Source: Mageeibacillus indolicus UPII9-5 (GTDB lineage: Bacteria > Bacillota > Clostridia > Saccharofermentanales > Fastidiosipilaceae). From it: DNA of 64,000 bases. The translations under genes were made by a program, and so were the position numbers. The notes under the pieces are model-generated. The model made no database searches and was not told the DNA's origin. It saw only the letters and a list, made by a program, of their open reading frames with translations. The stretch is from the NCBI RefSeq assembly GCF_000025225.2, contig NC_013895.2, positions 62,001 through 126,000 on the forward strand. Reading direction: 5' to 3'. Positions 823 to 62,888 of this stretch are shown here, one piece after another (position 1 is the first letter of the stretch; each line of letters starts with the position of its first letter).

Positions 823-1316
823 TTATCCTCTGCTTTCAATTCCAATGTGATTTTGGTATGGTCGGGAATCAGTCGACGATACTTTACTCCGGCCGCATCC
901 ATCATGCGTTTGGATGCTTTTACGGCATCGGTGGAGGCATATTTGTCGGAAAGATAAATCACTTCCACCAGGCCGGCTTGAATAATGGCTTTGGAGCATT
1001 CGTTGCAGGGGAAAAGATCCACGTAAATTCTGGCACCATGCAAAATCGCTCCAGGATTGTTAAGGATGGCATTTAATTCGGCGTGGCAGACGTAGGGATA
1101 TTTGGTGGATAAATAATCTCCTTCGCGTTCCCAGGGGAAAGTTTCGTCACTGCAGCCGTACGGCAACCCATTGTAGCCGACGGAAATAATCCGATTGTTT
1201 GGGCTGACGATGCAGGCGCCGACTTGCGTGTTGGGGTCTTTGCTGCGTTGAGCCGAGAGCAGCGCAACGCCCATAAAGTATTCGTCCCAAGATAAGTATT
1301 CTTGTCGCTTGCTCAT
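819..1316 (-). CDS. comEB: dCMP deaminase (ComEB-type)
   Basis: 165 residues, normal length for the family. It deaminates dCMP to dUMP, feeding thymidylate synthesis in the cytoplasm. The zinc-binding signature is complete: HAE at 78-80 (His ligand and catalytic Glu) and PCNEC at 103-107 (two Cys ligands). The ATG at 1316 is preceded by a clear AGGAGG ribosome binding site. The gene is followed by the P-type ATPase gene with a 4-base overlap. The symbol follows Firmicute usage; no competence genes lie nearby, so a competence role is not implied. Confidence 0.92.
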   Translation of the reverse strand: MSKRQEYLSWDEYFMGVALLSAQRSKDPNTQVGACIVSPNNRIISVGYNGLPYGCSDETFPWEREGDYLSTKYPYVCHAELNAILNNPGAILHGARIYVDLFPCNECSKAIIQAGLVEVIYLSDKYASTDAVKASKRMMDAAGVKYRRLIPDHTKITLELKAEDK

Positions 1317-1521
1317 GTGTACCTCCTAAGTTGTTTTCGCCATGTGCACTAACGGCCAAACGATAAACTATAAGATGTCGCGGCAGCCGTGGCATCTCGG
1401 AATCCCGGGAGGCCTTGGCCGTGAAACCCGGGAGGTCTTGGCGAGATTACTGTTTTTCGAGACCTCGAATTACCGAATTCGCGAGTTCCCGAAGTAGGCT
1501 AAGTAAACAGCTATACATTGC
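1317..1521. repeat. Short intergenic gap with a GC-rich direct repeat
   Basis: The 205-base gap between the deaminase and the PBP gene holds two near-identical 16-base units (CCCGGGAGGYCTTGGC), at about 1405-1420 and 1428-1443. They are separated by a few bases. No gene or clear terminator is seen. Confidence 0.5.
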
Positions 1522-4500
1522 TTAGTCTGAATCTGTATCTAATCTTGAGTCCGATCCAGACCTTGAGCCTGAATTTGAGTCTGAATCACCGCGTCGGGTC
1601 GAGCCGGGCCGCAGTTTCTTCAGTATCCGATCAAACAATCCACTGCCATCGCCGTTCTCATCTGAATCCTCATCATCCTTAATACTAGCTCTGCCGGAAT
1701 TTTGCTTAGGAATGAGAGGACTGTTCTCCTGATACCATTCTGTCATGACCTGATTGGACGGAGTTGACGGAGTGGCCAAGAGCCCGTCATAAATGTTTAT
1801 TTTTCGCTCGACAATGTCATTCGGACGATCGAACGGCTTGTCTTTCATATTGATATGAATCTTGTCCATGACCGCACGCCAGATCCGAACAGGATTTTCC
1901 CAGTCCTGCTCCGGTATAGCGGTTTGCTTGACCATGTTATCGAACCCGAACCACACCGCACCGGTATAATAATGAGTGAATCCCGCGAACCATTTGTCAA
2001 CGTTACTATCGGTAGTACCGGTTTTACCGCCGGTGGAGATGATTTCTTTATTTCCGTTAACTACCGGCCCATATTTACCGGCATCAGTGTACATGCCGAA
2101 CGCCGAAGTTGACTTGCGCAAGTTTTCCTCCAGCATAGTGTTCATGATAAATGCTGTTTCCGGTTTGAAAATCCGTTGTTCTTCAGGTGTATTTTCCAAA
2201 ATAACGTTGCCGTCTTTATCAACGACTTTAGTAAAAGCATAAGCCGGGCGATAGACTCCGTTATTAGGGAATGTGGCATAGGCCTGTGCCATCTGTAAGG
2301 GGGATACACCGTGTTGCGGAGCACCGACGGCTGCAGCAAGTCCGACCTCATCTTTCGTCCAGTCAATCCCCATGTTTTTCAGATAACGCTTGCCGGTGTC
2401 GACACCGATTGCTTTCAAAATAGTTACTGCCGGTACGTTGAGCGAGCCTTTAAGTGCATTGCGGAAAGTAACTGGTCCGCGGTATTGACGGTCATAGTTG
2501 GTCGGCCAAGGCTTATCTGGGCCGTTAAAGAAAACTTCTTTATCCTGAATTATACTGCTTCCGACAAACTTGCCTATGTCTAAAGCCGGGCCGTAAGCGA
2601 CTAATGGTTTAATACTTGAACCGGGCTGACGTTGTAAATCTGTGGCACGATTCCAAATTAAGTTAGTCGTTTTTTCGCCGAAGCCGCCTTGCATTCCGGC
2701 AATTGCTCCGGTTTTGTTATTAATGACCACCATACCGGCTTCCGGTTTTTCCGGGTAATCTTCATAGAAGGACGGATTTTTCTGGAACAAGTCTTTTTTG
2801 CTAAAGGCTTCGTCAAGTGCCGCCTGTACGGCTGGTTCCATTGTAGTGTAAATGTGTAATCCGCCGGATGACACGTATTGATAAGCTATGTTGCGGCTTA
2901 AGCCTTGCTCGACCAAACGATCGACGACTTGGGAAATTACGTATTCAACGAAATATGAGTTAACTTTGGCTTGGGCCTTATCTTCAGGTACCGGTGCAAG
3001 AACGATATCGGTTTTGAGGGCGTCATCGTAGTCTTTCCGGCTTATTTTACCCAGTTGATACATTTTGGCCAAAACTACCTGTTGGCGACGCAAAGTATTA
3101 CGCATACCGTTTTCTGTGCGCGGATTGTATATGGCTGGTCCTTTCGGGATAGCCGCCAAAAAAGCGCATTCGGGTAGGGTCAGGTCTTTGGCTGATTTGT
3201 TGAAGTATCCTTCGGCTGCCGCCTCGATACCGACGTAGCTATTGCCCATGGGGACTAAATTAAGATAAAGTTCCATGATCTCAGTTTTGCTGAGTTGCTC
3301 ATCTAGCATGATGGCGCGGTACCATTCTTGAATTTTACGTTGGCTGGAAACTTGGTTATCGCCAGTTACCAGTTTGACGGTTTGCTGAACGATGGTGGAG
3401 CCGCCGTGGGTGGGCGTGCCGCCGTTAGCCAGGGCTGAAAGAATTGCGCTGGCAATACGCTTGGGGTCGATGCCGATGTGGGTCATGTAGCGTTCATCTT
3501 CGATGGCGATGAAGGCGTTGGCAATGGCTGTGTGCTCGACTTGGTTATATGTCACATAACGGCGATCTATATTCTGCGATCCTGTTTGCTTGGCAATGAA
3601 TTCTCCCTTGGCATCGTAAAGATATGTGGTTTCGGAACCTGAGCGCAATAAATCGGCGGGAACCGGCTTGGTGGTAGAGATGTAGCCGAACAAAACGCCG
3701 CTGCCGAAGCCGCCAATTAGAAATAATAACAGCACAATGGCGAGAATCGCTGTCTTGGCAAAGCGGGTTAATAGCAGGGCAATGGCTTCTTGGGTCCCAT
3801 AGGCGGGGATCGGAAGGGAGGGTTTGCCACGTAAATTTTTGCGTAAAGCTTTGCGTAGGCGGATCATTTCCTGCCGGGTCACCTCGCCGGGCAGGTGGCG
3901 TTGTAGGCCTTGCGGCGGCATGGAGTGGGCGAAGTTATCCGAGCGAAGGTTGGGGTGTTGAAGTGGCGCGGGTGTTTGTTCAGGCATCGCGCGGTTCGGC
4001 GGCGGAGGCTGAATTTGCTGTTGCTGCTGGGCAGATTGTCGTTGTTGGGCAAGCTGCTGCTGTTGGGCAGATTGCCGTTGTTGGGCAAGCTGCTGCTGTT
4101 GGGCAGATTGCCGTTGCTGGGCAAGCTGCTGCTGGGCAGATTGCCGTTGTTGGGCAAGCTGCTGTTGCTGGGCAGATTGCCGTTGCTGGGCAAGCTGCTG
4201 CTGGGCAGATTGCCGTTGTTGGGCAAGTTGCTGTTGCTGGGCAGATTGCATCTGTTGGGCAAGCTGCTGCTGTTGTTGGGCAAGTTGCTGTTGTTGGGCA
4301 AGCTGCTGCTGTTGGGCAGATTGCCGCTGTTGGGCAAGCTGCTGTTGCTGGGCAGATTGCCGTTGTTGGGCGAGCTGCTGTTGCTGGGCAGATTGCTGCT
4401 GTTGGCCAATGATGTTTGGCGACTGCCGATTGGTTTGTGGCCGCGCTGGAGATGTATCCGCTAATCCCGGTTGTTTCATCTGTTGTGACGGCATCTGTTG

Positions 4501-34275: not shown

Positions 34276-34367
34276 CCCGTTTCCACCCCCTAAATAGTAA
34301 ATCGTTAGCCTTAAGTATAGCATAAATTACTGACTTGTCTCAAGAATTTATTCGCAAATTTATACAG

Positions 34368-34398
34368 AAAAAGCCGACTCCGGAAGGAATCGGCTTTG
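34368..34398 (-). terminator. Terminator after duplicated surface-protein gene, copy A
   Basis: The inverted repeat AAAGCCGA / TCGGCTTT with GGAA loop region is followed on the minus strand by TTTTTCTG, about 30 bases after the stop. The same element follows copy B, so it belongs to the duplicated unit. Confidence 0.8.
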
Positions 34399-34424
34399 TT
34401 GTGATTTGCTAAGAGTCAGGACTC

Positions 34425-35540
34425 TTATTTGCAGCAGCAGCAAGCTACATCGTAAGCGGTGATTTCGTCAAAGGTGAACATCGGAACTTTAACTGTCTTG
34501 GTTTCAACTTTCTTGCAAACGAGAGGACGACGGAGAACCTTTTCGTATACCTGAGCAGCACCGTAGTATTTAACGGCCGGAGCAGATACTTGGCAACTCG
34601 GGACGTAGATGGGGAAGTAAGAAGCGGTGTTCGGGACATCGTCTTTCTTAGCGTTGTTCTTGTCTTCAGCCTTAGCAGCTTTGCCAGAAGCCTTAGCGGT
34701 GTAGTCGGCTAAGGAGCAAGCACGCAGGGTTACTTTGTATTGTTTAGCCAAATTATTGATCAGGTTGATCTTGGTGGTAGCTTTTTTCGCTTCAAGGTCA
34801 AGATCGGAATAGGCTCGGTCGGCACCTTCTCTTGTTGCATATGGCTCAATTCTTTTGACGACTTCGGTATAGTTTTTATGTGCAGTGTATGACAAAAGAT
34901 CTGATATTTCTTTGTCGTTACCTTCAAAAAGTTGAAGGTTTGTCTTTTCTCCTTCAAACACAGCACCTAATAAAGTATCGGATTTTTTATGTGCCAGATA
35001 AGCATCAATGTTGAAGGTGTTGCTTTTTTTCGCTTCAGCCAAATCATCAAAATATTTTTTATTTAATTCCAATAATTCCTTCAATTTTTTGGCATCTTTA
35101 GCAAAGACTTTCCTGTCTCCTTGAGAAACATCGCCAACTGTATTATCCACTTCACTGAGACGTTTGTATGAAACGTTAATTGTTTCAATACCTTTAGCCA
35201 ATTCAATAAACTTATCAGTTGCCAGAATTTGATTGTTGGCGGAATCGAGTTCAAATTGAGCCTTGCAACGTTCGTTGCCTAATTTTGCGATGATATTGGC
35301 ATCTTTCACAACCGCGTTTAGAGCGTCGTCAAACTTCTTGAGCGATTCCTTGAATCCTTTTTCAAGAAGATCCATATAGAGAACGTTCTCATTGACCTCT
35401 TTTGTTCCGGTCAGCGTTTTGAAACCAGCATGTTCCAAGATATCCAGTTCGCCTTTATTCCAATCAAGAGCGAACACGCCGGAAGCAAGAACCATGGACA
35501 TTGCCAAAACTGATGACAATACTTTAAAACCTTTGTTCAT
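34425..35540 (-). CDS. Secreted Cys-tail surface protein, copy A of a tandem pair
   Basis: 371 residues, function not recognised. ATG 35540 follows AGGAGGAG; a longer frame lacks a site. A clean signal peptide (cleavage near VFA, about residue 24) leads into a mostly helical, Lys/Glu/Ala-rich body. The C-terminal part has KKDDVPNTA (about 296-304) and ends in CCCCK. Ends are almost identical to copy B, but the middle (about residues 108-230) is strongly diverged. It is also a distant relative of the protein at 45330. The position of KDDVPNTA about 70 residues from the end is unlike the other carriers, where it is near the terminus. Confidence 0.85.
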   Translation of the reverse strand: MNKGFKVLSSVLAMSMVLASGVFALDWNKGELDILEHAGFKTLTGTKEVNENVLYMDLLEKGFKESLKKFDDALNAVVKDANIIAKLGNERCKAQFELDSANNQILATDKFIELAKGIETINVSYKRLSEVDNTVGDVSQGDRKVFAKDAKKLKELLELNKKYFDDLAEAKKSNTFNIDAYLAHKKSDTLLGAVFEGEKTNLQLFEGNDKEISDLLSYTAHKNYTEVVKRIEPYATREGADRAYSDLDLEAKKATTKINLINNLAKQYKVTLRACSLADYTAKASGKAAKAEDKNNAKKDDVPNTASYFPIYVPSCQVSAPAVKYYGAAQVYEKVLRRPLVCKKVETKTVKVPMFTFDEITAYDVACCCCK

Positions 35541-35564
35541 AATTACTCCTCCTAGGAAATATTG

Positions 35565-35584
35565 TTGTGAAATTTTCTTCACAA
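35565..35584 (-). promoter_or_regulatory. Dyad upstream of copy A
   Basis: A perfect 7-bp dyad, TTGTGAA-N6-TTCACAA, lies 25-44 bases before the start codon, just upstream of the ribosome binding site. It could be an operator or a 5' leader hairpin. The same dyad stands before copy B. Confidence 0.55.
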
Positions 35585-35752
35585 TCAAAGGTTACCCCTG
35601 ATTCAGAATGAACGCAATACATTTCTATGTTTTGCACGAGTTAATAGCATAAATCCGTTTTAAACGAGGCAAAACGAGACTCGCAGGAGGGGGGCAGGCG
35701 GTCATTTTGCTGAAAGTGGGATAGGGAAATTTATTCGCAAATTTATACAGAA

Positions 35753-35780
35753 AAAGCCGACTCCGGAAGGAATCGGCTTT
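35753..35780 (-). terminator. Terminator after duplicated surface-protein gene, copy B
   Basis: Same AAAGCCGA / TCGGCTTT hairpin and minus-strand T-run as after copy A, repeated by the duplication. Confidence 0.8.
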
Positions 35781-35807
35781 GTTGTGATTTGCTAAGAGTC
35801 AGGACTC

Positions 35808-36917
35808 TTATTTGCAGCAGCAGCAAGCTACATCGTAAGCGGTGATTTCGTCAAAGGTGAACATCGGAACTTTAACTGTCTTGGTTTCAACTTTCTTGCA
35901 AACGAGAGGACGACGGAGAACCTTTTCGTATACCTGAGCAGCACCGTAGTATTTAACGGCCGGAGCAGATACTTGGCAACTCGGGACGTAGATGGGGAAG
36001 TAAGAAGCGGTGTTCGGGACATCGTCTTTCTTAGCGTTGTTCTTGTCTTCAGCCTTAGCAGCTTTGCCAGAAGCCTTAGCGGTGTAGTCGGCTAAGGAGC
36101 AAGCACGCAGGGTTACTTTGTATTGTTTAGCCAAATTATTGATCAGGTTGATCTTGGTGGTAGCTTTTTTCGCTTCAAGGTCAAGATCGGAATAGGCTCG
36201 GTCGGCACCTTCTCTTGTTGCATATGGCTCAACTTTTTTGACGACTTCGTCGTAAGTACCGTTGACTTTTCCTACAAGAGTTTCGATTGCTTCAACGTTA
36301 TCTGAGAGTCTTTTTCCGTTAGAGTCTTTTTTAAAAAGATCAGCACCTAAGTATGCGTCGGTCTCAATATTTTTTAACCCATTAGGAATGGTATCTGCTT
36401 TTTTAATGGATTTCCAAATTTCTTTGTTTTCATCCAAAAGATCTTTCAATTTGTCAGCATCGACTTTGAAGAGTTTTTTGTTCACAAGGACTGTTTTCAC
36501 GTCAAAGTTATCTTTTGCCTGGTTTAAGGCCTTGTACTTCGCGCCGTTGGCATCGTAGGATTTAAGCCCTTTAGCCAATTCAATAAACTTATCAGTTGCC
36601 AGAATTTGATTGTTGGCGGAATCGAGTTCAAATTGAGCCTTGCAACGTTCGTTGCCTAATTTTGCGATGATATCGGCATCTTTCTCAACCGCGTTTAGAG
36701 CGTCGTCATACTTCTTGAGCGATTCCTTGAATCCTTTTTCAAGAAGATTCATATAGAGAACGTTCTCATTGACCTCTTTTGTTTCGGTCAGCGTTTTGAA
36801 ACCAGCATGTTCCAAGATATCCAGTTCGCCTTTATTCCAATCAAGAGCGAACACGCCGGAAGCAAGAACCATGGACATTGCCAAAACGGATGACAATACT
36901 TTAAAACCTTTGTTCAT
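35808..36917 (-). CDS. Secreted Cys-tail surface protein, copy B of a tandem pair
   Basis: 369 residues, function not recognised. Signal peptide, N-terminal about 107 residues and C-terminal about 140 residues (including KKDDVPNTA and the CCCCK end) match copy A almost perfectly, with a few substitutions (for example TETKEVNENVLYMN in place of TGTKEVNENVLYMD). The centre is of similar length but different sequence. ATG 36917 follows AGGAGGAG. It precedes copy A in the direction of transcription, each with its own leader and terminator. Confidence 0.85.
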   Translation of the reverse strand: MNKGFKVLSSVLAMSMVLASGVFALDWNKGELDILEHAGFKTLTETKEVNENVLYMNLLEKGFKESLKKYDDALNAVEKDADIIAKLGNERCKAQFELDSANNQILATDKFIELAKGLKSYDANGAKYKALNQAKDNFDVKTVLVNKKLFKVDADKLKDLLDENKEIWKSIKKADTIPNGLKNIETDAYLGADLFKKDSNGKRLSDNVEAIETLVGKVNGTYDEVVKKVEPYATREGADRAYSDLDLEAKKATTKINLINNLAKQYKVTLRACSLADYTAKASGKAAKAEDKNNAKKDDVPNTASYFPIYVPSCQVSAPAVKYYGAAQVYEKVLRRPLVCKKVETKTVKVPMFTFDEITAYDVACCCCK

Positions 36918-36941
36918 AATTACTCCTCCTAGGAAATATTG

Positions 36942-36961
36942 TTGTGAAATTTTCTTCACAA
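36942..36961 (-). promoter_or_regulatory. Dyad upstream of copy B
   Basis: Same TTGTGAA-N6-TTCACAA dyad as at 35565-35584, at the same distance from the start codon. Confidence 0.55.
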
Positions 36962-37086
36962 TCAAAGGTTACCCTTGATTCAGAATGAACGCAATACATT
37001 TCTATGTTTTGCACGAGTTAATAGCGTAAATCCGTTTTAAACGAGGCAAAAACGAGAAATGAACCTTGCAAGGCGGTGGGATCAGG

Positions 37087-37220
37087 CGGTCGCTTCGCCG
37101 AAAGTGGTGATGATGTAGTTGGACTGGGCGATCACTTCGCCGAAACTGGCTTTGATGAGTTTGGCTAGGCTCTGCGGGTCAAGCTCCATTTGCAGGCCTG
37201 TTTTTCCGGTGTTGGCATTG
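37087..37220 (-). pseudogene. Fragment of the YbaK gene 3' end
   Basis: Bases 37132-37198 are identical over 67 bases to 38095-38161 at the end of the ybaK-like gene. Read on the minus strand it gives the same ELDPQSLAKLIKASFGEV end and then continues through about 15 other residues to a stop at 37087. There is no matching 5' part or start, so it is a broken partial copy on the other side of the HAD gene. Confidence 0.75.
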
Positions 37221-37421
37221 GAGGTTGGAGGGAGATGGCGAGATCAGCTGGGCGCGGAGGCAAAGGCAAAGGCAGAGGCAGCTTGTTGCGAGTAGGGGGG
37301 AACAGGTATAATTATGCGTATCTTACGAGAATTTAGGCGTCGGATAGGAAGCCGCGTAAATATACCACGCAAATATATAGCCGGATAAGAAACCACGTAA
37401 TTATATAAAAAGAGGTAAATT

Positions 37422-38090
37422 ATGAACAAAGCAAAGATACGAGCCGTCATTTTTGATATGGACGGAGTGCTGGTAGATAGCGAAGTCGATTTTATTAAGC
37501 GATTACGGCGGGTATTGCAGAAACAGCGCATCGTGCCACCGGAGCAAATGTTAGTCGAAATGGTCGGAGCCGGGGAAAAATTGTTGAACGATATCTTGCA
37601 GCGGTATCTGCCACAAATAACGTGGTCAAAATTGGTGAAAGCTTTTTTGGCGGATTGCGTGACCTTTCCGCTAGATTATCCGGGGCTGCTGTTTGCTGAT
37701 GTCAAGCCTTTTTTGGCATTCTTGCGCAGTAACGGGTACCGGGTTGGGCTGGCTTCGGCCTCGGAATTGCCAACGGTGCGCAAAGTTTTGGAGGATTGCG
37801 AGTTGGTAACATTTTTTGACACTATTTATAGTGGGACGGATGTGGTCAATTCTAAGCCGCATCCGGAGATTTATTTGAAAGCGGCGGCGGCAATGCAGGT
37901 GGAGCCGGCGGAATGTTTGATCGTGGAGGATTCGGAATATGGCATTCGCGCGGCGGTGGCGGCTGGCGCCGGGGTGGTCGCGGCGCGGCGAGATTGTCAT
38001 TTTAATTTGGATCAAAGTGCGGCGGACATTATTTTTGATGATATGCGTGAGCTGGAGGCGGTGCTGGCCAAAGATAAGCAGGGGGATTAG
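37422..38090 (+). CDS. HAD-family phosphatase/phosphoglucomutase-like hydrolase
   Basis: 222 residues, usual length for the beta-phosphoglucomutase-like subfamily. Motif I is DMDGVLVDS (11-19, nucleophile the first Asp), motif II is in GLASAS, the Lys is in NSKPHPEIY and the acidic pair in VEDSEYG. It acts on a small phosphorylated sugar or similar metabolite; the substrate is unknown. AAGAGG precedes the ATG. It ends overlapping the convergent ybaK-like gene by 4 bases. Confidence 0.88.
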   Translation: MNKAKIRAVIFDMDGVLVDSEVDFIKRLRRVLQKQRIVPPEQMLVEMVGAGEKLLNDILQRYLPQITWSKLVKAFLADCVTFPLDYPGLLFADVKPFLAFLRSNGYRVGLASASELPTVRKVLEDCELVTFFDTIYSGTDVVNSKPHPEIYLKAAAAMQVEPAECLIVEDSEYGIRAAVAAGAGVVAARRDCHFNLDQSAADIIFDDMRELEAVLAKDKQGD

Positions 38091-38560
38091 GTGGTCACTT
38101 CGCCGAAACTGGCTTTGATGAGTTTGGCTAGGCTCTGCGGGTCAAGCTCCATTTGCAGGCCGATTTTTCCGGCACTGACGATGAAGGTCGGTAGGGAGCT
38201 GGCTGAGGCGTCAATGTAGGTGGTAAAGAGGGTTTTCATGCCCACTGGTGAACAGCCGCCGTGTACATAGCCGGTTAGTTTCAGCAAATCTTTGGACGGC
38301 AACATCGCGATGGATTTTTCGTCAGCTAAACGTGCCGCTTTTTTTAGGTCTAGCTCGGCTGCTCCCGGAATGACGAAGACGTAATGGGCCCCGGATTTAC
38401 CGGCTGTAACCAAAGTTTTGTATATTTTGGCCGGCGGCTCGGCGATTGCGGTTGCCACTTCTACGGCGGAAAGTGCGGTTTTGCTGTCGAATGTGTGGAT
38501 CGTGTAGGGGATTTTTGCGGTGTCAAGAGCGCGTAAGGCGTTTGTTTTGTTTATTTTCAT
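38087..38560 (-). CDS. ybaK: Cys-tRNA(Pro)/Cys-tRNA(Cys) deacylase, YbaK/EbsC family
   Basis: 157 residues, full family length. It hydrolyses misacylated Cys-tRNA(Pro). The conserved Lys in KIYKTLV, PGAAELDLKKAARL and GYVHGGCSPVG match YbaK. The gene is convergent with the HAD gene, and a copy of its 3' end lies beyond that gene at 37132-37198. Confidence 0.9.
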   Translation of the reverse strand: MKINKTNALRALDTAKIPYTIHTFDSKTALSAVEVATAIAEPPAKIYKTLVTAGKSGAHYVFVIPGAAELDLKKAARLADEKSIAMLPSKDLLKLTGYVHGGCSPVGMKTLFTTYIDASASSLPTFIVSAGKIGLQMELDPQSLAKLIKASFGEVTT

Positions 38561-39309: not shown

Positions 39310-42300
39310 ATGAAACAGTTTATACGGCAAACTGCAGCGGTACTTAGCTTGGTCTTGGTTTTGACTTCAGTTGATGTTACCGGAGCCTTAGCAGTGAGAG
39401 CGGAAGAAATAAAACAGAACACAGGCGTGCTTAATTTCAATGATTTGAGTTCTGGCACGGGCAACGGCGCGTCCGGCAGCGAAGAAACGGGCGGCAGGGA
39501 GCTGAATAAAGCTGTTACGGCGGCCCCGGGGCAAACTTCTGACGGAAAATCAAGTTCAGCTCGGTTGAAGCAGGATAGTGCGGCAAAATATGCGGCCGAT
39601 TCGGCTAAAAACAACGGCACTGCGGCGCAGAATCGCACTGTCGGCAACAGCACCGCTAGCAGCACCGGCAACACTACCGGCAACACTATCGGCAACAGCA
39701 CCGGAGGACAGGATCGTGCGACAGACCCCAACAGTAGCGCAAACAGTGATCTTGTCGCGATCACCAAAGATCCGCGCATTTCTGAAAAAGACAACCAAGA
39801 CCCCAAAGAAACCGACCCGACAAAAATGTTAGAAATTGGCGAGCAACCGGATCCGGCGCCGAAAGCTCCAGGCTACTATATGAATGAAAATCTGCCTAAG
39901 CGAGCAAGATTTATCGGACCCGACCCGACAGAACAAACTGCTGCAGATGATCAGGTGCAGACCAATCTTAAGCCGGGCAACCTCTATTCTTACACCATGA
40001 TTATGAATTTAGTTGGCAAAGAACAAGGAAAAGACGATAAATTAAACCCGTTCTACCAGCCCTATCAGATCACAGTAGGTGAAGACGAAAGTGCGTTAAA
40101 AGAAGCCGGCATAACCTACCAGCTGCCGGAAATGAACGGGTACAAATCTCCTAATAAGGCTGCTGGAGAAAGTGGCACAGCTTTGCAGAATACGACCGAT
40201 GGCCACAAAACAATCACTTTTGATTATGACAATGTCAAAAAGTTGGCAGAAAAAGGTAAGGCGGAAGGGGACGAAAACGTCGGCCAACTGAAGAATTACG
40301 TCGAGAATTTCAACTACGAACCGCAACCGATAACATTTAAGGTCCAACACATGGTCCAAAGTCTGGCCAAGCAAGGTGAATTTGAGCTTTACAATGGGCA
40401 AGGTGGCGAATCAGAAATAAAGGCCACGGTTGGTGAAGTTTGTACGATTCCGCCCTTGGCTGCGCTCGAAGAAGGCTATGAAGAAGTAGAGAAAAATATG
40501 AAAGTCCTCGTACCGGACACGAAAGACTTTGTCGTGAACAAGTACTACATTCGCAAGCGTTCCAACGTGATTTACGATACAGCTGGCGGCAAACCGATTT
40601 CTTCCCGTCGCTTTGCGTTCGGCCAAACGATTCCATTGCCGAAAGACCCTCCGGTTAAAGACGGGTATGAGTTTTTAGGCTGGAAAGTCGGGTCAGATCT
40701 TGGCAGTTATAAGAAATATAAGAAGGACGATGTGATTGGCAAAGACGTGCAGCAACTGGACGGGGCTATGCCGGGGCACGAGGTAAAATTTATAGCAACG
40801 TGGAAGGGCAAGGAGAAGGCTCCGTACAAGGTGACGTATTGGCTTGAAAAAGCGGATTATAAAAAAGAGGACAAGGGAGATTTCGCTAAAACGCATGCTT
40901 TCTTGTACGAAGTGGACAAGCCGGAAGTGCCGATAACCACTGACTTGACAAGCACATTCAAAACCTTGGCAGATGAAGCGTTGGACATTGGTGATGAAAA
41001 CAAGTTCCCATCTGAGGACTTGGGTACCGGTAACAGGAGAAAAGGTTTCCTCTACGATGCGAAAACGACGGAAAAACTTAACAACGATCTTAAAATCAAG
41101 AATCCTACGCCTGATGGCAAAACGAATGTGCAGATTGTCATTAAAAGGAAACGTTATACACTAATTTTTTGCAATAGTATAAACGGAGGGGTAAAGAAGT
41201 ATACGTTTGCACCACGCTGGAGTGATAAGTGGGATGCGGAAGGTAACAGATTGCTGAGTTCGGACCCCAAGATACCTTTTGCCCCCCCATTGGTCAACCC
41301 GGAACCCGATAAGAATTTTGGAAAACCTCCGGAGGCAGGGTATGACAAGCCATATCAATTTGTCGCGCGTTTCGGGCAGGAAACAATCGGCCTCTGGCCT
41401 ATTCCGTTGGTTAACTGTAAATTAGGCATAAATAAGGATTTTTTTGGTTGGTACGGTAATGGTCATGATCCTTACCTAGATACACCACCATATAAGTTTG
41501 ACTCATTTATCACTGATAGCTATACATACAACAAGGTCGATACTTTTGGCCATATCGATGAAAACGTTGTTATCGATTTAAATAAAGTTGGAAATAATCA
41601 AGATGAGGGAAATAAGGAATATCCTGTTTTGAATTTTAACGCAACGGAAGGTGGAGGCCATGCAGTGCATGTTGAGTTTAAGACTCAGCCTGTAGATGGA
41701 GAAAGTTATGAGTGGAATTACCGCGGTTTACACTATTATAAGTTTGATACTCATTATGAAGACTATGGCTTTCCGGCTCCTTCACTTAAAGGATTCACCC
41801 CCATAGACTATACGGGGAACAAAAATGACCCTCGCTTTAAACAACATAATATTAGTAACGGTGATGTTCAAGGAGTTAAAAACTACCTAAAAGAGCAAGG
41901 TATGCCGGAAGACATCATTGAGTCAAGACTTGAAGAAGATAAGGACTACTGGCATGGCCGGGATGACACCGGCATACTTATTACAAAATATAATCGCAAG
42001 AAGTACAATCTTATCCTGCACAACGGCAAAGAAACAAAAGAACCTCAACTGCCTTATGAGTCCAACATCAGTGATTACTTGCAGAAGCTGCCAACTCCTT
42101 CCGCGGAAAAAGCAGGTTATCCCAAAACTTGGAAATTTGTCGGCTGGACGCTCGACCCGGGCAATAAAATCGACGTGCCCAAGACCGGTTTCACTATGCC
42201 CGACTACAATGTGCAAGTTTACGCCAAGTGGAAAGATCCCAATATCTATAACTTTACAATAGACTTAAACAAAGCAGCAGCTCCCGCGGCGAAGATGGAC

Positions 42301-44940
42301 GATTTGCAACAGGCCGAAGTGACCAATGCCACCTTTGACAACGAGTTGTACAAAAAAGAAGACAACAGCCCGAAGGGCAGCTTTAAAGACCCCGATAAGA
42401 AAATGACGTTCTTCATCAAGTCCGGTTTTAAAGTCAATGAGCTGACACAGAAACCCACTTGCCCCGGCTACACTTTCCTCGGCTGGCGAGTGCTTCGCTA
42501 CCAAATCGATCCGCAAACCGGCAAAGCCGACTTGACTAAGTTGATAACCCCTAAGCCAGGGGAACAGGTTGAGTACTTTGCTTTTGGCAATGTTATCGGC
42601 GAATCCTGTGTCGCTCAGGCAATGTGGATCAAAAATGAAGTCGCGCCGGTGCGCTATGAACACCATTTTTTCGACAAACAAGACAACGAATTGGGAGCCG
42701 AAGCTACTACTGATCAAACGAATAAAGACGGTATGAAAGGGTTTAAAGGTAAAGGCCTAGTCTACATCAATCCGAACGGGCGGCCTGACTCACAAATTGC
42801 CGGTATTGGCGAAAAGCAAGACGAAAACTGGGTGCTGATTGCTTCCCCCAAGACCTTGAAAAAAGTGAAAGCCCAAAGTGAAAATAAATATATTCAGAGT
42901 TTGATGGTGAAAAAATTTCCCGAAGGTCAAGATAATCCGAATGTATTCAAATTTTACTATCAGCCGTTCAAAAAACGCTTCTACTACAAGAAGTTTATTT
43001 GCGATAATGCCGTAAATGCCGATAACCCGGGCGTGCAGCCGAGCAGTTCGTTTGAAATCATGGACCCGGATAAAGTGAAGAATAACAACCATGATTTTGA
43101 CACTTGCAATTTCAAGAAGATCCCCGGTTTCCTCCTTGCCAAGGAAGAAAAGAAGCAAAAGTCGGTCAAGTTTACACTTAATAAAGAAACCGGCGATATA
43201 GAGAAAATAAACGGGAAAGCGATTAAACCGAATGATCCGCAGGCCAAGATTGGGGTGGAATTCCATTACACGGATGCTCGCGTGTTGCTGCGTAATTCAG
43301 ATGCTGAAAACATCAAAACTCCTAAGGGTTACCATCGTGTCGTGATTGATTTGGCAAAAACTAAGATGGAGTTCGCCTACGATTATGTCGGATCGCACAA
43401 TAAGGAAGGGAAGGCGAACGTTAAAGAAAATCGCAGTAAATATGTGGTCGACGTGGCCGATGGCTATAAAGACGAAAATATTCCAATCCCGGATGTTGTG
43501 CCGGTACGTGAATTGCCGGTGCACAAAATTTGGCTGGATCAGAACGGTCTAAATATTTATAGCGGCGAATTGTATGAGGATCCCGGCAAAGCGGAGGAAG
43601 ATCTGGAGGCAGATTTGGATGAAGCGGTAGTCAAGAAACCTGTCAAACCTGCGCTGCCGATAATGAAACCAGCCGCGGCGACGATTACTTTAAGCCCGGT
43701 CGATGATTATACGGATGCAAACGGCAACAAGGTTCGAGATACGGAAGTTAAGATGTCGGCCGACGATTTGAAACTTAAGGACGAGCAGAACAACGTTTTG
43801 AAGCAGCCTTACTGGGAGAAGAAGGCCTACTTGCCGATTGGAACCCCTTTGTTTGTTGAGCGATTGGGTGATCCGCAAAATTCTCCTACCGGGCCAACAC
43901 CGCGTACCTTGAAATTGGCCGATTTCGCTAGTTGTAAAAAAGATGATAAAAGTGGTGACGTAGCGGCGGAAAATCAGAAGTTACCGGCCGGAGAGCAATG
44001 GCGGGCTAAGCCGTATCTAAAAAGAAGCTTGGAATTTGATGCCAAACAACCGTGGAACGAGGCTGAATTTGAGCGGCTGCGTAAACTGGATGGACGTAAG
44101 CACGAGTTTTTCAAGTACAATGCTTCGGAAAAAAATGCAACAAGACAAACGGATGGGCGTGAGGTCGGAGTTTTCGTCGAACATGAGGTCAGCCTAAGGG
44201 ATAAGAATGGGGCAGAGGTGAAAAGACTAAAGCTGTTTGACGTGGATGTCGTCGGCAGTAAGGCTGCGGAAGGCGATACCCAAAATTCCATTGACGATAT
44301 GAAGCAGCTGGTGGTTGTAAACGCGGAGGTTCCGACGATTGATGTTGAAGTGCAAAAATCTTGGTATGATTACGAAGGTAAATCGCTTGATTTCAACACG
44401 TTGTCTGTGGGCTCGGCGGTCAATCCGAAACCGTTGACGATGGAAATGCGTTTCTTGGATCCGGTTGTCGCTAAAAATTTGCCGACAAGGAGCACGGATT
44501 TAACGGCTGCCGGTAAGTGGCACGGTTGGATAAGGAATGTTCGGGTGAGGTTCCGGCGCAAAAGTGACCATGTTTACGCCTATAATTTGCATGAAGTTGG
44601 GGAGGATAACGGCCTTCTCAGTTATGGGGGCAAAAAGTTTGTGGCGACTTATATCGGGCGTTGTCTGGACGGGTTCAAGGTTTTCAATCATGAGAAGATT
44701 AACGGTTTCCCGCCGGTTGTTGCTATTTGTGATTGCGCCAGAATGGGTATGAATAAGGCGTATTCGGCGATGAACCAGGTTGGCGCGTTCGTTGAGCAGA
44801 AGTTTAGGCAGTTGTTTGGTAGGCGTGGGCTTCGTTTGGGCGGTGCGCCGAGCGGTGGCACGGTAAGCGGTGGCAGGGCTGCCGGTGATATGGGGGGCTG
44901 TGACGCAGCAGGTGGTTGCCAGTCCTGTCATTTGGATTGA
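39310..44940 (+). CDS. Giant secreted surface protein (1876 residues) with InlB-like and Cna-B-like repeats
   Basis: Signal peptide with cleavage near residue 31 (AVRA), a Ser/Gly/Asn/Thr-rich stalk (about 105-150, GNTTGNTIGNSTGG-like), then a long mature part. Several segments of the InlB/Listeria-Bacteroides type (GYEFLGW near 455, WKFVGW near 940, GYTFLGW near 1050, each followed by a xxxATW or VYAKWK strand) are spread through it. A Cna-B-like strand pattern ends in GFKVFNHE near 1790. The C-terminus is Gly/Cys-rich (GGCDAAGGCQSCHLD) with no LPXTG, membrane helix or positive tail, so anchoring is not the usual sortase type. Likely adhesin or matrix protein. AAAGGAAAT precedes the ATG. Confidence 0.85.
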   Translation: MKQFIRQTAAVLSLVLVLTSVDVTGALAVRAEEIKQNTGVLNFNDLSSGTGNGASGSEETGGRELNKAVTAAPGQTSDGKSSSARLKQDSAAKYAADSAKNNGTAAQNRTVGNSTASSTGNTTGNTIGNSTGGQDRATDPNSSANSDLVAITKDPRISEKDNQDPKETDPTKMLEIGEQPDPAPKAPGYYMNENLPKRARFIGPDPTEQTAADDQVQTNLKPGNLYSYTMIMNLVGKEQGKDDKLNPFYQPYQITVGEDESALKEAGITYQLPEMNGYKSPNKAAGESGTALQNTTDGHKTITFDYDNVKKLAEKGKAEGDENVGQLKNYVENFNYEPQPITFKVQHMVQSLAKQGEFELYNGQGGESEIKATVGEVCTIPPLAALEEGYEEVEKNMKVLVPDTKDFVVNKYYIRKRSNVIYDTAGGKPISSRRFAFGQTIPLPKDPPVKDGYEFLGWKVGSDLGSYKKYKKDDVIGKDVQQLDGAMPGHEVKFIATWKGKEKAPYKVTYWLEKADYKKEDKGDFAKTHAFLYEVDKPEVPITTDLTSTFKTLADEALDIGDENKFPSEDLGTGNRRKGFLYDAKTTEKLNNDLKIKNPTPDGKTNVQIVIKRKRYTLIFCNSINGGVKKYTFAPRWSDKWDAEGNRLLSSDPKIPFAPPLVNPEPDKNFGKPPEAGYDKPYQFVARFGQETIGLWPIPLVNCKLGINKDFFGWYGNGHDPYLDTPPYKFDSFITDSYTYNKVDTFGHIDENVVIDLNKVGNNQDEGNKEYPVLNFNATEGGGHAVHVEFKTQPVDGESYEWNYRGLHYYKFDTHYEDYGFPAPSLKGFTPIDYTGNKNDPRFKQHNISNGDVQGVKNYLKEQGMPEDIIESRLEEDKDYWHGRDDTGILITKYNRKKYNLILHNGKETKEPQLPYESNISDYLQKLPTPSAEKAGYPKTWKFVGWTLDPGNKIDVPKTGFTMPDYNVQVYAKWKDPNIYNFTIDLNKAAAPAAKMDDLQQAEVTNATFDNELYKKEDNSPKGSFKDPDKKMTFFIKSGFKVNELTQKPTCPGYTFLGWRVLRYQIDPQTGKADLTKLITPKPGEQVEYFAFGNVIGESCVAQAMWIKNEVAPVRYEHHFFDKQDNELGAEATTDQTNKDGMKGFKGKGLVYINPNGRPDSQIAGIGEKQDENWVLIASPKTLKKVKAQSENKYIQSLMVKKFPEGQDNPNVFKFYYQPFKKRFYYKKFICDNAVNADNPGVQPSSSFEIMDPDKVKNNNHDFDTCNFKKIPGFLLAKEEKKQKSVKFTLNKETGDIEKINGKAIKPNDPQAKIGVEFHYTDARVLLRNSDAENIKTPKGYHRVVIDLAKTKMEFAYDYVGSHNKEGKANVKENRSKYVVDVADGYKDENIPIPDVVPVRELPVHKIWLDQNGLNIYSGELYEDPGKAEEDLEADLDEAVVKKPVKPALPIMKPAAATITLSPVDDYTDANGNKVRDTEVKMSADDLKLKDEQNNVLKQPYWEKKAYLPIGTPLFVERLGDPQNSPTGPTPRTLKLADFASCKKDDKSGDVAAENQKLPAGEQWRAKPYLKRSLEFDAKQPWNEAEFERLRKLDGRKHEFFKYNASEKNATRQTDGREVGVFVEHEVSLRDKNGAEVKRLKLFDVDVVGSKAAEGDTQNSIDDMKQLVVVNAEVPTIDVEVQKSWYDYEGKSLDFNTLSVGSAVNPKPLTMEMRFLDPVVAKNLPTRSTDLTAAGKWHGWIRNVRVRFRRKSDHVYAYNLHEVGEDNGLLSYGGKKFVATYIGRCLDGFKVFNHEKINGFPPVVAICDCARMGMNKAYSAMNQVGAFVEQKFRQLFGRRGLRLGGAPSGGTVSGGRAAGDMGGCDAAGGCQSCHLD

Positions 44941-45329: not shown

Positions 45330-46391
45330 ATGGGAAAAACAATAAAAATACTAGCTGGAGCCTTGACAATGACCATGCTGGCCACGAGCGGGGTGACAGC
45401 GTTGGAATACACATCATTCAGCCGCGAGGAAGCGAAACTGGTAGATCAGCTTTTTGAGGAACAGAATCGCAGCAAGGCGGCTGAGGCGAACGGTGCGAAC
45501 GGCGCGAACGGCGGCGGAGCGAAAACTGCAGCCGACCAAAACGGCATGATTGAGCCGAACGTAATATATAAGTCATTTGCTACGCCGGAGTTTTACCGGA
45601 CACTGAAAAGATACGATGAAGCGCAAAAATCGCTCGCCCAGGACGCCGACGTGGTTGGTGCGCTCGGCACGGCAAGATGTGTAGCCCAATTTCGTTTGGA
45701 CGAACTGAATCGCCAAATCTGCGCCACGCGTAAATTGATGGAATTGGCGGAAGGGATCAAACGCATCGACACATATCGTTATAAACGTTCGCGTAAAACT
45801 AGTGACCCCCAAAAACCGTACCAATTCTACCGCAATGATTTTCCGGTGATTACAGATGCTGTGCGCAGTGCAGCGAGAATATACGCGCTCGACAAAGATG
45901 CCCAAGCTCTGGACAAATTGATCAAGACGAATGCTGAGTTGGCTAGCAAAAACTTGAACGAAAAGCCGAAGTACGAGGCTTTAGGCATCGAATACATGGA
46001 TCGAGTGACCGGGCGCGAGTTGAAAGACAATGTTTTGGCGATTCGCACCCTGATCGACAAAAAGATCATGACCCCGTTGTATCGTGGTCTGATCGAGAAA
46101 CTGATGCTCTTTTACGGTAACAAGCAAATCGCGGATCACACGGTGGGCGAATTGACTCGGCAAGCCAAGGTCGAGGCGGCCAAGATCCACCTGTTGGAGG
46201 CTTTTGCCAAGCAGAAGAAGTTCAGCCTGCGTTCTTGTCCGTTATGCGATTACGGTGCCAAAGTAACACCTTTAGGCGTCGGGGCAGCGGAATTGGCAGA
46301 AAAGATCAAGCAAAAAGATCCGAACAAAGATGACGTGCCGAACACGGCGGCTGCAGTTGTTGCGGCTCCGGTCAAGCGTTTCGCTAACTGA
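45330..46391 (+). CDS. Secreted protein related to the tandem surface-protein pair
   Basis: 353 residues from ATG 45330 (GAGG upstream). Signal peptide ends near TSGVTA. The body matches the pair at 34425/35808 in layout: CVAQFRLDELNRQICATRKLMELAEG against CKAQFELDSANNQILATDKFIELAKG, and the block ending LRSCPLCDY against LRACSLADY. It has an extra Asn/Gly/Ala linker (about 52-65). KDDVPNTA comes 15-22 residues from the end, followed only by AAVVAAPVKRFAN. It lies on the opposite strand and is well diverged, so it is an older paralogue. Confidence 0.82.
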   Translation: MGKTIKILAGALTMTMLATSGVTALEYTSFSREEAKLVDQLFEEQNRSKAAEANGANGANGGGAKTAADQNGMIEPNVIYKSFATPEFYRTLKRYDEAQKSLAQDADVVGALGTARCVAQFRLDELNRQICATRKLMELAEGIKRIDTYRYKRSRKTSDPQKPYQFYRNDFPVITDAVRSAARIYALDKDAQALDKLIKTNAELASKNLNEKPKYEALGIEYMDRVTGRELKDNVLAIRTLIDKKIMTPLYRGLIEKLMLFYGNKQIADHTVGELTRQAKVEAAKIHLLEAFAKQKKFSLRSCPLCDYGAKVTPLGVGAAELAEKIKQKDPNKDDVPNTAAAVVAAPVKRFAN

Positions 46392-59584: not shown

Positions 59585-61192
59585 TCAATTTAACGAACAG
59601 AATAACCGTGCCGCCGCAGCTGTGTCAGGAACATCGTCTTTCTTGGCCGAAGTCTTAGCTTTGGGGCAAGTATCGCATGTGAACGGAATGGCTCTCAAGT
59701 CGAAATAGCTGCTACCTTTTGAGCTGGGCGAGGAGGAGCCGGGATTATTATTGTCGGTACCGCCACTCGGTTTGTTTTTTACAATCAGCTGGATTGTATT
59801 TTTTGAGGTTTGATTATTATCAAAAGTTGCGGTTAGTTGAATTAAGTAGGTCCCGGCGGGGGCTTGCGCGTCTTGGTGTATCTTGAGGACTTTCGCAGTT
59901 GCGTCGTACTTTGCGGTCACATACGCAACATCTCTGTTTTGCGAGATGATCTCGTTGTTGTATAACACTTTTACGGCGACATCTTTAGGAATCTTGGGTT
60001 GATGAGTTGTCTTGTCTTCCCAAGCTAGTTTAACCTCAAAGTCTTTGGTTACGCCAATGGTATTTTCAAAATCTTTATGATCCGGTTTAAATTCTAAATT
60101 GTTTTCCTGCGGTTGTGGCTGTGGCTGATCAGGATTCGGGCCTGGCACCGGCGGTTGCGGCTGAGAGCCATCCTTGGGTGGAATCGTAAACTCGTACTCA
60201 ATCGTTGCAGTTTTAGGGCTGGCACCAGCAGCGGTAGCAGTAATTCTAATGGTATATACCCCGGCAGGGATTTCCGTTACTGTAGGTTCTCCTGAACCCG
60301 AAGCAGGATATTTGATATTGCTTATTTCTACAGTTGGATTGCCTTTTATGACTCGGGCAGTTAAACCTTTAACCGGAGTTGAAGGTGATTCTTTTTTGCC
60401 AACCGTCGCGGTAATTTGGGCATTTGTAGCTGTACCACCTAACTGATAAGGCACGGTTAAAGCCAATCCCCTATTGGAATTGCTCTTCCCGAATTGCCCG
60501 GCAATGGCAGCAGCAATATTTTCATCTGCATCCTCAGGCTTAGTAAGTGTGAGCGTAGGCACTAAATTTGTAGGACCCTGTACGGGTTGGCCGTCTGAGC
60601 TAAGGTATTTGGTTGTGTCACTCGCGTAATCCTTGATACCTTTTGGGAAGTCGCAACCTTTGAAAATGACTTGGCCGTGGTTTACCGGCGGTAGCTCAAA
60701 AGTGCAGTTTTCAAAAGTCACCTGAGCACCTTTTTCGATCTCAACCGTGCAGCCGTTATTGTCCAAATTATTTTTCTTTTTGAAAGTAACATTTTTTACT
60801 GTGAGGTTAGCACCTGTGGAAATAATAAGTTTCTCATTGGCACTACCACCCATGTAATAATAACTATTAGTTGTCTGGCTTTTTTCAGCCGTCAGCTCTT
60901 TTATCTCTTTGCCAATTTTAGCATTAGGCCCAAGACTTCTACAATTGGATTTCAAAGAAATAGCATTATATCCACCGTCAACCGCGTTTTGGAGCAAAGT
61001 GTCAAAGTTAAAGCTACCGCCATCGGTTATTGGGAAGACTTTCAACTCTTCTTGCGCTTGTACCGGTGTTTGTAGGAAAACCACTCCTACGGTTAGCAAA
61101 CTGAAAGCAGTTAAAATTGCCAATGCCCTAAAGCCTTTTTGCCTAGTTCGCTGGCCGTCAAAAAAATTCGGTAATTTACATTTTAAATTCAT
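59585..61192 (-). CDS. Secreted beta-helix/Ig-like protein with C-terminal KDDVPDTA
   Basis: 535 residues; ATG 61192 follows GGAGG (a longer frame lacks a site). Signal peptide ends near VQAQ. Residues about 60-190 look like a right-handed beta-helix (repeated VTFENCTF, VKNVTF patterns), followed by Ig-like strands and a Pro/Gln linker (PQPPVPGPNPDQPQPQ). The C-terminus has CDTCPKAK and then KKDDVPDTA, 11-19 residues from the end, with the tail AAARLFCSLN. Function unknown; extracellular or wall-associated. Confidence 0.82.
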   Translation of the reverse strand: MNLKCKLPNFFDGQRTRQKGFRALAILTAFSLLTVGVVFLQTPVQAQEELKVFPITDGGSFNFDTLLQNAVDGGYNAISLKSNCRSLGPNAKIGKEIKELTAEKSQTTNSYYYMGGSANEKLIISTGANLTVKNVTFKKKNNLDNNGCTVEIEKGAQVTFENCTFELPPVNHGQVIFKGCDFPKGIKDYASDTTKYLSSDGQPVQGPTNLVPTLTLTKPEDADENIAAAIAGQFGKSNSNRGLALTVPYQLGGTATNAQITATVGKKESPSTPVKGLTARVIKGNPTVEISNIKYPASGSGEPTVTEIPAGVYTIRITATAAGASPKTATIEYEFTIPPKDGSQPQPPVPGPNPDQPQPQPQENNLEFKPDHKDFENTIGVTKDFEVKLAWEDKTTHQPKIPKDVAVKVLYNNEIISQNRDVAYVTAKYDATAKVLKIHQDAQAPAGTYLIQLTATFDNNQTSKNTIQLIVKNKPSGGTDNNNPGSSSPSSKGSSYFDLRAIPFTCDTCPKAKTSAKKDDVPDTAAAARLFCSLN

Positions 61193-61265
61193 AAAACCTC
61201 CAACTTGTGGCGTGCTGTTGTGACCAAACGTCATCGCCTAAATGAACTAATTTACCTGCGAATCC

Positions 61266-61484: not shown

Positions 61485-62888
61485 ATGAAAAAAATATACC
61501 GGTCAATTGCGGTGACGGTTTTGGCGGCTCTGATGGCTCTGCCGATGGTGGTTCGGGCGGAGGATACAAGGCCGATTATCCAAGAAATAGGAGTAGAAGG
61601 GTTAACTGGTCCGGAAGATGTACGATTATATGTTGGTGAAACATCTAAAAATGTACTAGATAGATACGCCAACATTACTTTTAAAGCTAAACTGCCTGGT
61701 ACAAATGATGTCTATGCAGATATGAAACTCAAGGCTGTAGGATTTTATTCGCAAGGGCAAGGATATCTTGAACAAAAACTGTCAGACGATGTATGGCCTT
61801 TTGAGAAAACACAAGATGGACTGAAGTTGAACAAAGATAAAATGAAGTTTAAAACAGTTTTTACGCTCGCTTTTAAAGATCCTAAGTTATACGCTAACTA
61901 TCAATTTCTTAGCAAGAACACTGATGATAAAAATACAAAGTTGGTTTTCAAAGGTAGTGGTGAAAAAGTGTCTTCAGCTAGAGTGGAAAATTCTTTTCAA
62001 GGCGGGAACCCAATTGAGTTACTACATGTCCCGTTTGATGCTACTATCTTTCGTAGGTTCAATTTTATAAGTGAAGGCGCTCAAGTTAAAAAAGTTGGCG
62101 CAGGCAATTTTCTCGAACAGTGCGATACTGAACTACCGTTAGAGGAAAACCGTACAGTTGGAATTTGCCTAAGAAAAGAAAACGAACCAAATGATAATGC
62201 TGCGGTGGAAGTTAATTTGCTAAGTGGAGCAACTAAGTATGCTGTGTTTTTAAGGGATTTTGCGGAAAATGATAAATTTCTCCCAAATGAAACTAACATT
62301 ATGACATTGGGATTAGACGAGACAAGAAAAGCTGACGCTCTGAAAACATTGTTCACGGTAAGGGCAGATAAAGATGATAAAATCCCTTATATAGAAGCCC
62401 AAGATGTAACCTTAAAGCTAAAGCCTGATGAAAAAATAACAGCTGAGAAATTGATTGAAAAAGCTGTCAATAAGCTGACCACAGATGTTTTGACTAACTC
62501 GGCTCCTGTAGACAAGAGTAAACTAAGTAAGGTGAAAGCTTTAGTGAAAGAGGCGAATGGAGGCCACCATGGGTTCACAGAAGGCGATATTGCGACTGCC
62601 AAGGCTAAAGGTACGAACGGCTTAGAAATTGAATACCATTTTACTTCGCCTGAAGGAGATAAACTTGAATGCTTTTTCTCCGCCAAATTATTTGTCGAAG
62701 CCGCTGCGCCTAACCCGCCTGCCCCGGCACCGCAACCGCAGCCCAAACAACAAGAAAAAACCGGCAACACCTATTTCGACCTCGGCCGTAATTTCCTGCC
62801 CAACTGCCCCGACAGCAAGTGCGCTAAGGCCGGAACCAACGCGAAAAAAGACGATGTTCCGAATACCGCTGCGGCCGCGAACAACTAA
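61485..62888 (+). CDS. Secreted protein with C-terminal KDDVPNTA
   Basis: 467 residues, function not recognised. Signal peptide ends near VVRAE (about residue 22). The body is beta-rich, with a Pro/Gln linker (PNPPAPAPQPQPKQQ) before the end. The C-terminus has a CPDSKC pair and then KKDDVPNTA, ending only five residues later (AAANN). The region around WPFEKTQDGLKLNKDKMKFK resembles the next gene, so the two are paralogues. GGGAGG precedes the ATG. Confidence 0.82.
   Translation: MKKIYRSIAVTVLAALMALPMVVRAEDTRPIIQEIGVEGLTGPEDVRLYVGETSKNVLDRYANITFKAKLPGTNDVYADMKLKAVGFYSQGQGYLEQKLSDDVWPFEKTQDGLKLNKDKMKFKTVFTLAFKDPKLYANYQFLSKNTDDKNTKLVFKGSGEKVSSARVENSFQGGNPIELLHVPFDATIFRRFNFISEGAQVKKVGAGNFLEQCDTELPLEENRTVGICLRKENEPNDNAAVEVNLLSGATKYAVFLRDFAENDKFLPNETNIMTLGLDETRKADALKTLFTVRADKDDKIPYIEAQDVTLKLKPDEKITAEKLIEKAVNKLTTDVLTNSAPVDKSKLSKVKALVKEANGGHHGFTEGDIATAKAKGTNGLEIEYHFTSPEGDKLECFFSAKLFVEAAAPNPPAPAPQPQPKQQEKTGNTYFDLGRNFLPNCPDSKCAKAGTNAKKDDVPNTAAAANN

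Follow-up and report, generated by a model that had tools for sequence, protein, structure and literature searches.

Near-identical ends and diverged centres in a tandem pair of putatively secreted proteins of Mageeibacillus indolicus: evidence for segmental homogenization within a five-gene family

Mageeibacillus indolicus is a Gram-positive anaerobe and a bacterium of bacterial vaginosis. The window analysed here is a 64,000-nucleotide stretch (C1:62001-126000) of its closed 1,809,746-base genome, and carries on the minus strand a tandem pair of genes, A1 (34425-35540, 371 aa) and A2 (35808-36917, 369 aa), whose products have the same signal peptide, MNKGFKVLSSVLAMSMVLASGVFA, and the same C-terminus. 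Both genes start at the ATG codon behind AGGAGG and not at the TTG codon given in a mechanical ORF list. Each gene is preceded by a leader with a ribosome-binding site (35541-35668 for A1, 36918-37050 for A2) and comprises a 5' coding block (35190-35540 in A1, 36567-36917 in A2), a diverged centre (34866-35189 in A1, corresponding to residues 118-225; 36249-36566 in A2) and a 3' block in which the final 425 nucleotides of coding sequence are followed by 80 nucleotides past the stop codon (34345-34849 in A1, 35728-36232 in A2). The 3' block includes a terminator-like stem-loop of 12 pairs (34370-34397 and 35753-35780, respectively). The units are about 1.32 kb long and repeat with a period of 1.38 kb.

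The initial annotation had described the two genes as near-identical from the leader to the N-terminal part and from the C-terminal part to the terminator, which is borne out by the repeats, the mismatch counts and the synonymous rates. The 3' blocks are identical, the last approximately 140 residues being the same in both proteins, and a repeat search returns a 300-nt block present twice at 100% identity (from 34345 and 35728) and another present twice at 97% (from 35184 and 36561). The 5' coding blocks, aligned over the first 351 coding nucleotides, differ by 7 mismatches (about 98% identity), and the leaders are about 97% identical, with 4 mismatches in 138 aligned nucleotides upstream of the start. 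The centres have only 29% amino acid identity and saturated dS, in agreement with the strong divergence originally noted, although they span about 106-108 codons rather than the approximately 120 first given. Substitution rates along the alignment, which the initial annotation had proposed examining, confirm this partition, with dS (NG86) of 0.027, 2.3 and 0.0 for the N part, centre and C part. The partition is much too marked to be due to chance, and since synonymous and noncoding sites follow the same pattern as the protein, protein constraint does not account for it.

The A1 and A2 proteins gave nothing above curated cut-offs against Pfam, NCBIfam and PDB, with sub-threshold matches only. 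A2, but not A1, has an MRS2-like Pfam match (E 5e-5) below the curated cut-off, which was discounted because it probably reflects helix or coiled-coil similarity. Two AlphaFold2 models consist of low-confidence helices (pLDDT 36-38), and the proteins of this family are probably secreted and helical. The description as surface proteins is upheld as far as a good signal peptide goes, and not in the matter of surface location, as no LPXTG-type anchor or membrane segment is recognised in either protein. A promoter scan of the two genes scored no better than shuffled sequence, and Rfam gave no match in the window between 30000 and 50000.

In the whole closed genome, A1 and A2 belong to a family of five genes (family A), all intact and all with different centres. 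A1 and A2 lie at C1:96.4-98.9 kb, a second tandem pair, A3 and A4, at C1:31.7-34.4 kb, and a single gene, A5, at C1:1.793 Mb, on the other side of the origin and about 48 kb away from A3/A4. With dnaA at C1:400, no family A locus is more than about 100 kb from the origin. Every copy has a ribosome-binding site, a signal peptide and a CCCCK end, and A1 and A2 each have a terminator. Pairwise amino acid identities, all of them from comparisons within this one genome of the species and genus, are 57-95% for the N parts, 22-38% for the centres and 77-100% for the C parts, and in every pair conservation is lowest in the centre. Assuming that dnaA marks the origin, the five family A genes all run counter to replication and the five genes of a related family, family B, all run with it; this was noted after the fact, on only three family A and five family B loci, and may be due to chance. 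GC skew is positive throughout the window.

The two ends of a gene pair differ in their divergence, and so were not set by one duplication. In the A3-A4 pair, 48 of 348 N-part positions differ, compared with 9 of 339 in the C part (Fisher p 5e-8), and in A4-A5 the counts are 32 of 348 and 4 of 339 (p 1e-6), a contrast that is increased in these pairs by tighter constraint on the protein at its C end. In A1-A2 the contrast is small, amounting to 6 differences in 342 positions against 0 in 345 (p 0.015). The corresponding dS values for the N part and C part are 0.46 and 0.04 in A3-A4, and 0.26 and 0.03 in A4-A5, the centres being saturated in both. Past the ribosome-binding site on one side and the stop codon on the other, A5 has no flanking DNA in common with A3/A4; its C part is nevertheless nearly identical to theirs (dS 0.03-0.04). 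The N-part tree groups A1 with A2 and strongly rejects a grouping of A2 with A5, and among A3, A4 and A5 the synonymous differences in the N part switch partners along the gene. Together, these patterns provide good support for segmental homogenization of the ends, apparently repeated, at different times, and extending to distant loci. The gene conversion of the ends suggested at the outset is upheld by the different ages of the two ends in each related pair and by the tract shared with a distant locus, which stops at the stop codon; the individual events may have been gene conversions or double crossovers following duplication. A plain old duplication, followed by purifying selection on the ends and neutral drift of the centre with no recombination, would leave the centre as the least conserved part of every pair, as seen here, but it is scarcely credible given that dS of 0 to 0.04, accompanied by noncoding near-identity (in the ends of A1/A2 and the C ends of A3-A5), goes beyond what purifying selection on a protein produces.

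The initial annotation had also proposed cassette exchange in the centre, and a search for further central cassettes in the genome. A profile of the family A centre, searched at E values up to 10 through the closed genome, matches only the five family A genes and all five family B genes (the latter at E 4e-5 to 1e-3), and finds no silent or orphan cassette. The longest exact match between any two family A centres is 8-11 nt, within the expectation from codon-shuffled sequences, and no mosaic tracts were found between them. As no exact match exceeds 11 nt, recent exchange of centres among the five loci is not supported, and the proposed cassette exchange is not upheld within this genome, where no centre has been recently copied from another. 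Judged by the profile matches and by eight centre positions that are invariant in all five family A proteins, the five centres share homology among themselves and with the family B centre. They are about as distant from one another as from family B, and their tree contains no resolved grouping, with A1+A2 not rejected (p 0.37).

These findings also bear on antigenic switching, in which silent cassettes are copied into an expression site, as for VlsE, PilE or Msp2. Conserved flanks around a variable centre and the placement of the three loci near the origin (within about 100 kb) would suit such a system; the closed genome, however, holds no orphan or silent cassette, the centres lack mosaic tracts, and all five copies have a ribosome-binding site and signal peptide, with terminators in A1 and A2. 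The antigenic switching first suggested has no direct support: the five genes look complete and expressible, neither an expression site nor an inversion or repeat tract was found, and we consider such switching very improbable.

Base composition sets some of the centres apart from their ends. GC3 in A1 is 0.28 in the centre and 0.44-0.49 in the ends, and at degenerate third positions the pooled centres have 31% GC compared with 44% in the A1 and A4 ends (p 8e-5). Tested against their own ends, the centres of A1, A3 and A5 differ significantly in third-position GC, and those of A2 and A4 do not; the family B centre has no GC drop at degenerate third positions. The AT-rich centres may stem from import, from a GC bias in the conversion of the ends, or from relaxed selection on codons in the centre. 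Import of alleles, in which one or both centres of a recent tandem duplicate were replaced from another strain or species through the conserved flanks, would explain why there is almost no synonymous change in either A1/A2 flank, and a donor of lower GC would be consistent with the AT-rich centres, the more so as the homologous centre of family B lacks the drop. However, with five centres about equally distant and most of them AT-rich, several separate imports would be needed, the two ends of each pair differ in age, the GC difference has the two other explanations just given, and searches of 57 relatives, 188 genomes of the order and 398 genomes of the phylum turned up no donor. We regard import as an unlikely explanation.

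The account that we favour, with moderate confidence, is that the family A ends have been repeatedly homogenized, and that the approximately 110-residue centre has become too diverged for recombination to span and is held different by selection. At the 5' end, the homogenized part would comprise the leader, signal peptide and N-terminal helix, and at the 3' end the C-terminal helix, a DDVPNTA motif and the Cys-rich tail, with the terminator included within tandem pairs. Homologous recombination of the gene-conversion type between copies would keep these ends alike, the centre having presumably diverged until recombination no longer spanned it, and selection for diversity, whether to evade immunity, to avoid phage or to bind different ligands, may keep the centres apart. 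The outcome would be five expressible variants on one scaffold, constituting a standing repertoire and not a switching system fed by silent cassettes.

Diversifying selection on the family A centre is plausible because the homologous centre is strongly conserved in family B, where dN is 0.014-0.038 compared with dS of 0.14-0.36. The centre domain is thus not free of constraint by nature; on these rates, the same centre is a constrained domain in family B and a diversified one in family A. Synonymous sites in the family A centres are saturated, and positive selection is therefore not measurable there. Because one strain was compared, antigenic variation by the family A proteins and selection on their centres are both things that we infer. 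Alternatively, the centres may have bound different partners or ligands since old duplications, with the ends kept alike by recombination and constraint, and no arms race. Such specialization would accord with the retained core pattern of the centre and has a precedent in the Bab proteins, where the middle variable region is conserved per paralogue (PMC4552749); the equally low identity among the five centres, with family B just as far away, suggests instead an open-ended diversification, and we regard specialization as possible but rather doubtful.

Comparable arrangements are known in other bacteria. The Helicobacter pylori Bab proteins consist of an N-terminal homology region, a middle variable region and a C-terminal homologous region (PMC4552749), and their ends undergo intragenomic gene conversion (PMC4552749, PMC2795765). 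BabA, BabB and BabC thus share with family A the three-region layout and the recombining ends. They differ in being Gram-negative outer-membrane proteins with CT-repeat phase variation, whereas family A lacks a phase-variable repeat and has five copies, including two tandem pairs. HomA and HomB are likewise built from three segments, of which the middle one defines the allele and segment 3 undergoes concerted evolution (PMC2795765), and resemble family A in their alike ends and diverged middle. Their middles, however, form discrete alleles with a nucleotide distance of about 0.1 within a gene, while the family A centres are saturated, and strains could be compared in their case, as opposed to the single genome used here. 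Family A shows the signature by which concerted evolution is recognised in Bab and Hom, namely ends alike at synonymous and noncoding sites together with a diverged middle. No relation of A1/A2 to Bab or Hom appears above curated Pfam or NCBIfam cut-offs, and the resemblance would seem to lie only in the manner of evolving. The outer-membrane protein families of Ehrlichia consist of tandem full-length copies and need no truncated donors (PMC4534519), an arrangement like that of A1/A2 in proteins unrelated to family A. Borrelia vlsE, Neisseria pilE/pilS and Anaplasma msp2 share with family A the conserved flanks and variable centre, but family A has no silent cassettes, single expression site or mosaic centres; of the hallmarks of silent-cassette antigenic variation (PMC4534519), both a silent or partial reservoir and mosaic variable regions are absent from this genome. 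Family A adds a Gram-positive anaerobe to the bacteria that have recombining paralogue families diversifying only in the middle of the protein.

Profile searches detected no family A relatives in 57 genomes of the family and order or in 188 of the order, and among 398 genomes of the phylum gave a single weak match (E 4e-4), which comes from a 6.4-Mb genome and spans 81 positions of the helical N part. Scans of genome contigs and two scans of viral contigs also returned no relative, and the family A protein appears to be confined to this organism among the genomes sampled. Being found in no other sampled genome, the family A genes are markers of the organism and candidates for contact with host, phage or neighbours. 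Their conserved ends offer a simple PCR handle for counting centre types across strains.

Family B has its N part, centre and DDVPNTA segment in common with family A, and its loci are dispersed (107, 178, 500, 1640 and 1709 kb). Its member in the window (45330-46391, +, 353 aa) belongs to a set of five copies that are conserved over their whole length, each of which adjoins a gene for a secreted protein of very large size, with open frames of roughly 1500-2400 residues. In the window this is a 1876-aa protein (39310-44940, +) with Listeria-Bacteroides/InlB B-repeat domains and the C-terminus GGCQSCHLD, which lies ahead of the family B gene. The C-terminal region of this protein, ending in GGC[SQ]SCHLD, is kept in seven genomic copies (39310-44940 and six others), the bodies having diverged in the five compared, and a family B gene follows five of the copies. 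Near one family B gene lies a gene for a radical SAM/SPASM protein (L014:584-1951, -) that resembles Clo7bot-type peptide maturases but scores below the family cut-off; a connection of this protein with the Cys-rich C-termini would be speculative.

The motif KDDVP[ND]TA occurs at 16 sites in the genome, compared with none for a reversed-pattern control and none in 37 relatives. The sites in the window are at 34624-34646, 36007-36029, 46326-46348, 59619-59641 and 62847-62869, and the motif is present in all family A and B genes, in the secreted ORFs 61485-62888 (+) and 59585-61234 (-), and in others, its position being close to the C-terminus in several secreted families that are otherwise unlike one another. 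In family A, VPNTA stands about 65 residues before the Cys-rich hydrophilic end, and the C-terminus lacks the succession of motif, hydrophobic stretch and basic tail of an LPXTG-type sorting signal; the genome contains two sortase-like genes. A third secreted family, comprising 61485-62888 (+), 59585-61234 (-), L030 about 2553-3845 (+) and L031 about 963-2357 (+), has a similar C-terminal tail and strongly diverged bodies, with nearly the same signal peptide in 61485-62888 and the L031 member. Conserved ends with diverged bodies recur in the motif-bearing ORFs and in the large proteins. A broader reading, which we put forward with low confidence, is a lineage-specific modular system of secretion or display, in which end modules (those of family A, of the 467- and 549-aa ORFs and of the CxSCHLD-ended proteins) would recombine and outward-facing middles diversify, KDDVP[ND]TA would act as a sorting or processing signal of a new kind, and the ends would serve both as targeting module and as a recombination handle that spreads centres.

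Upstream of A2, a 108-nt stretch (37121-37228) is 87% identical to 38084-38191, the end of a neighbouring gene for an aminoacyl-tRNA editing domain, and is probably a leftover of a duplication.
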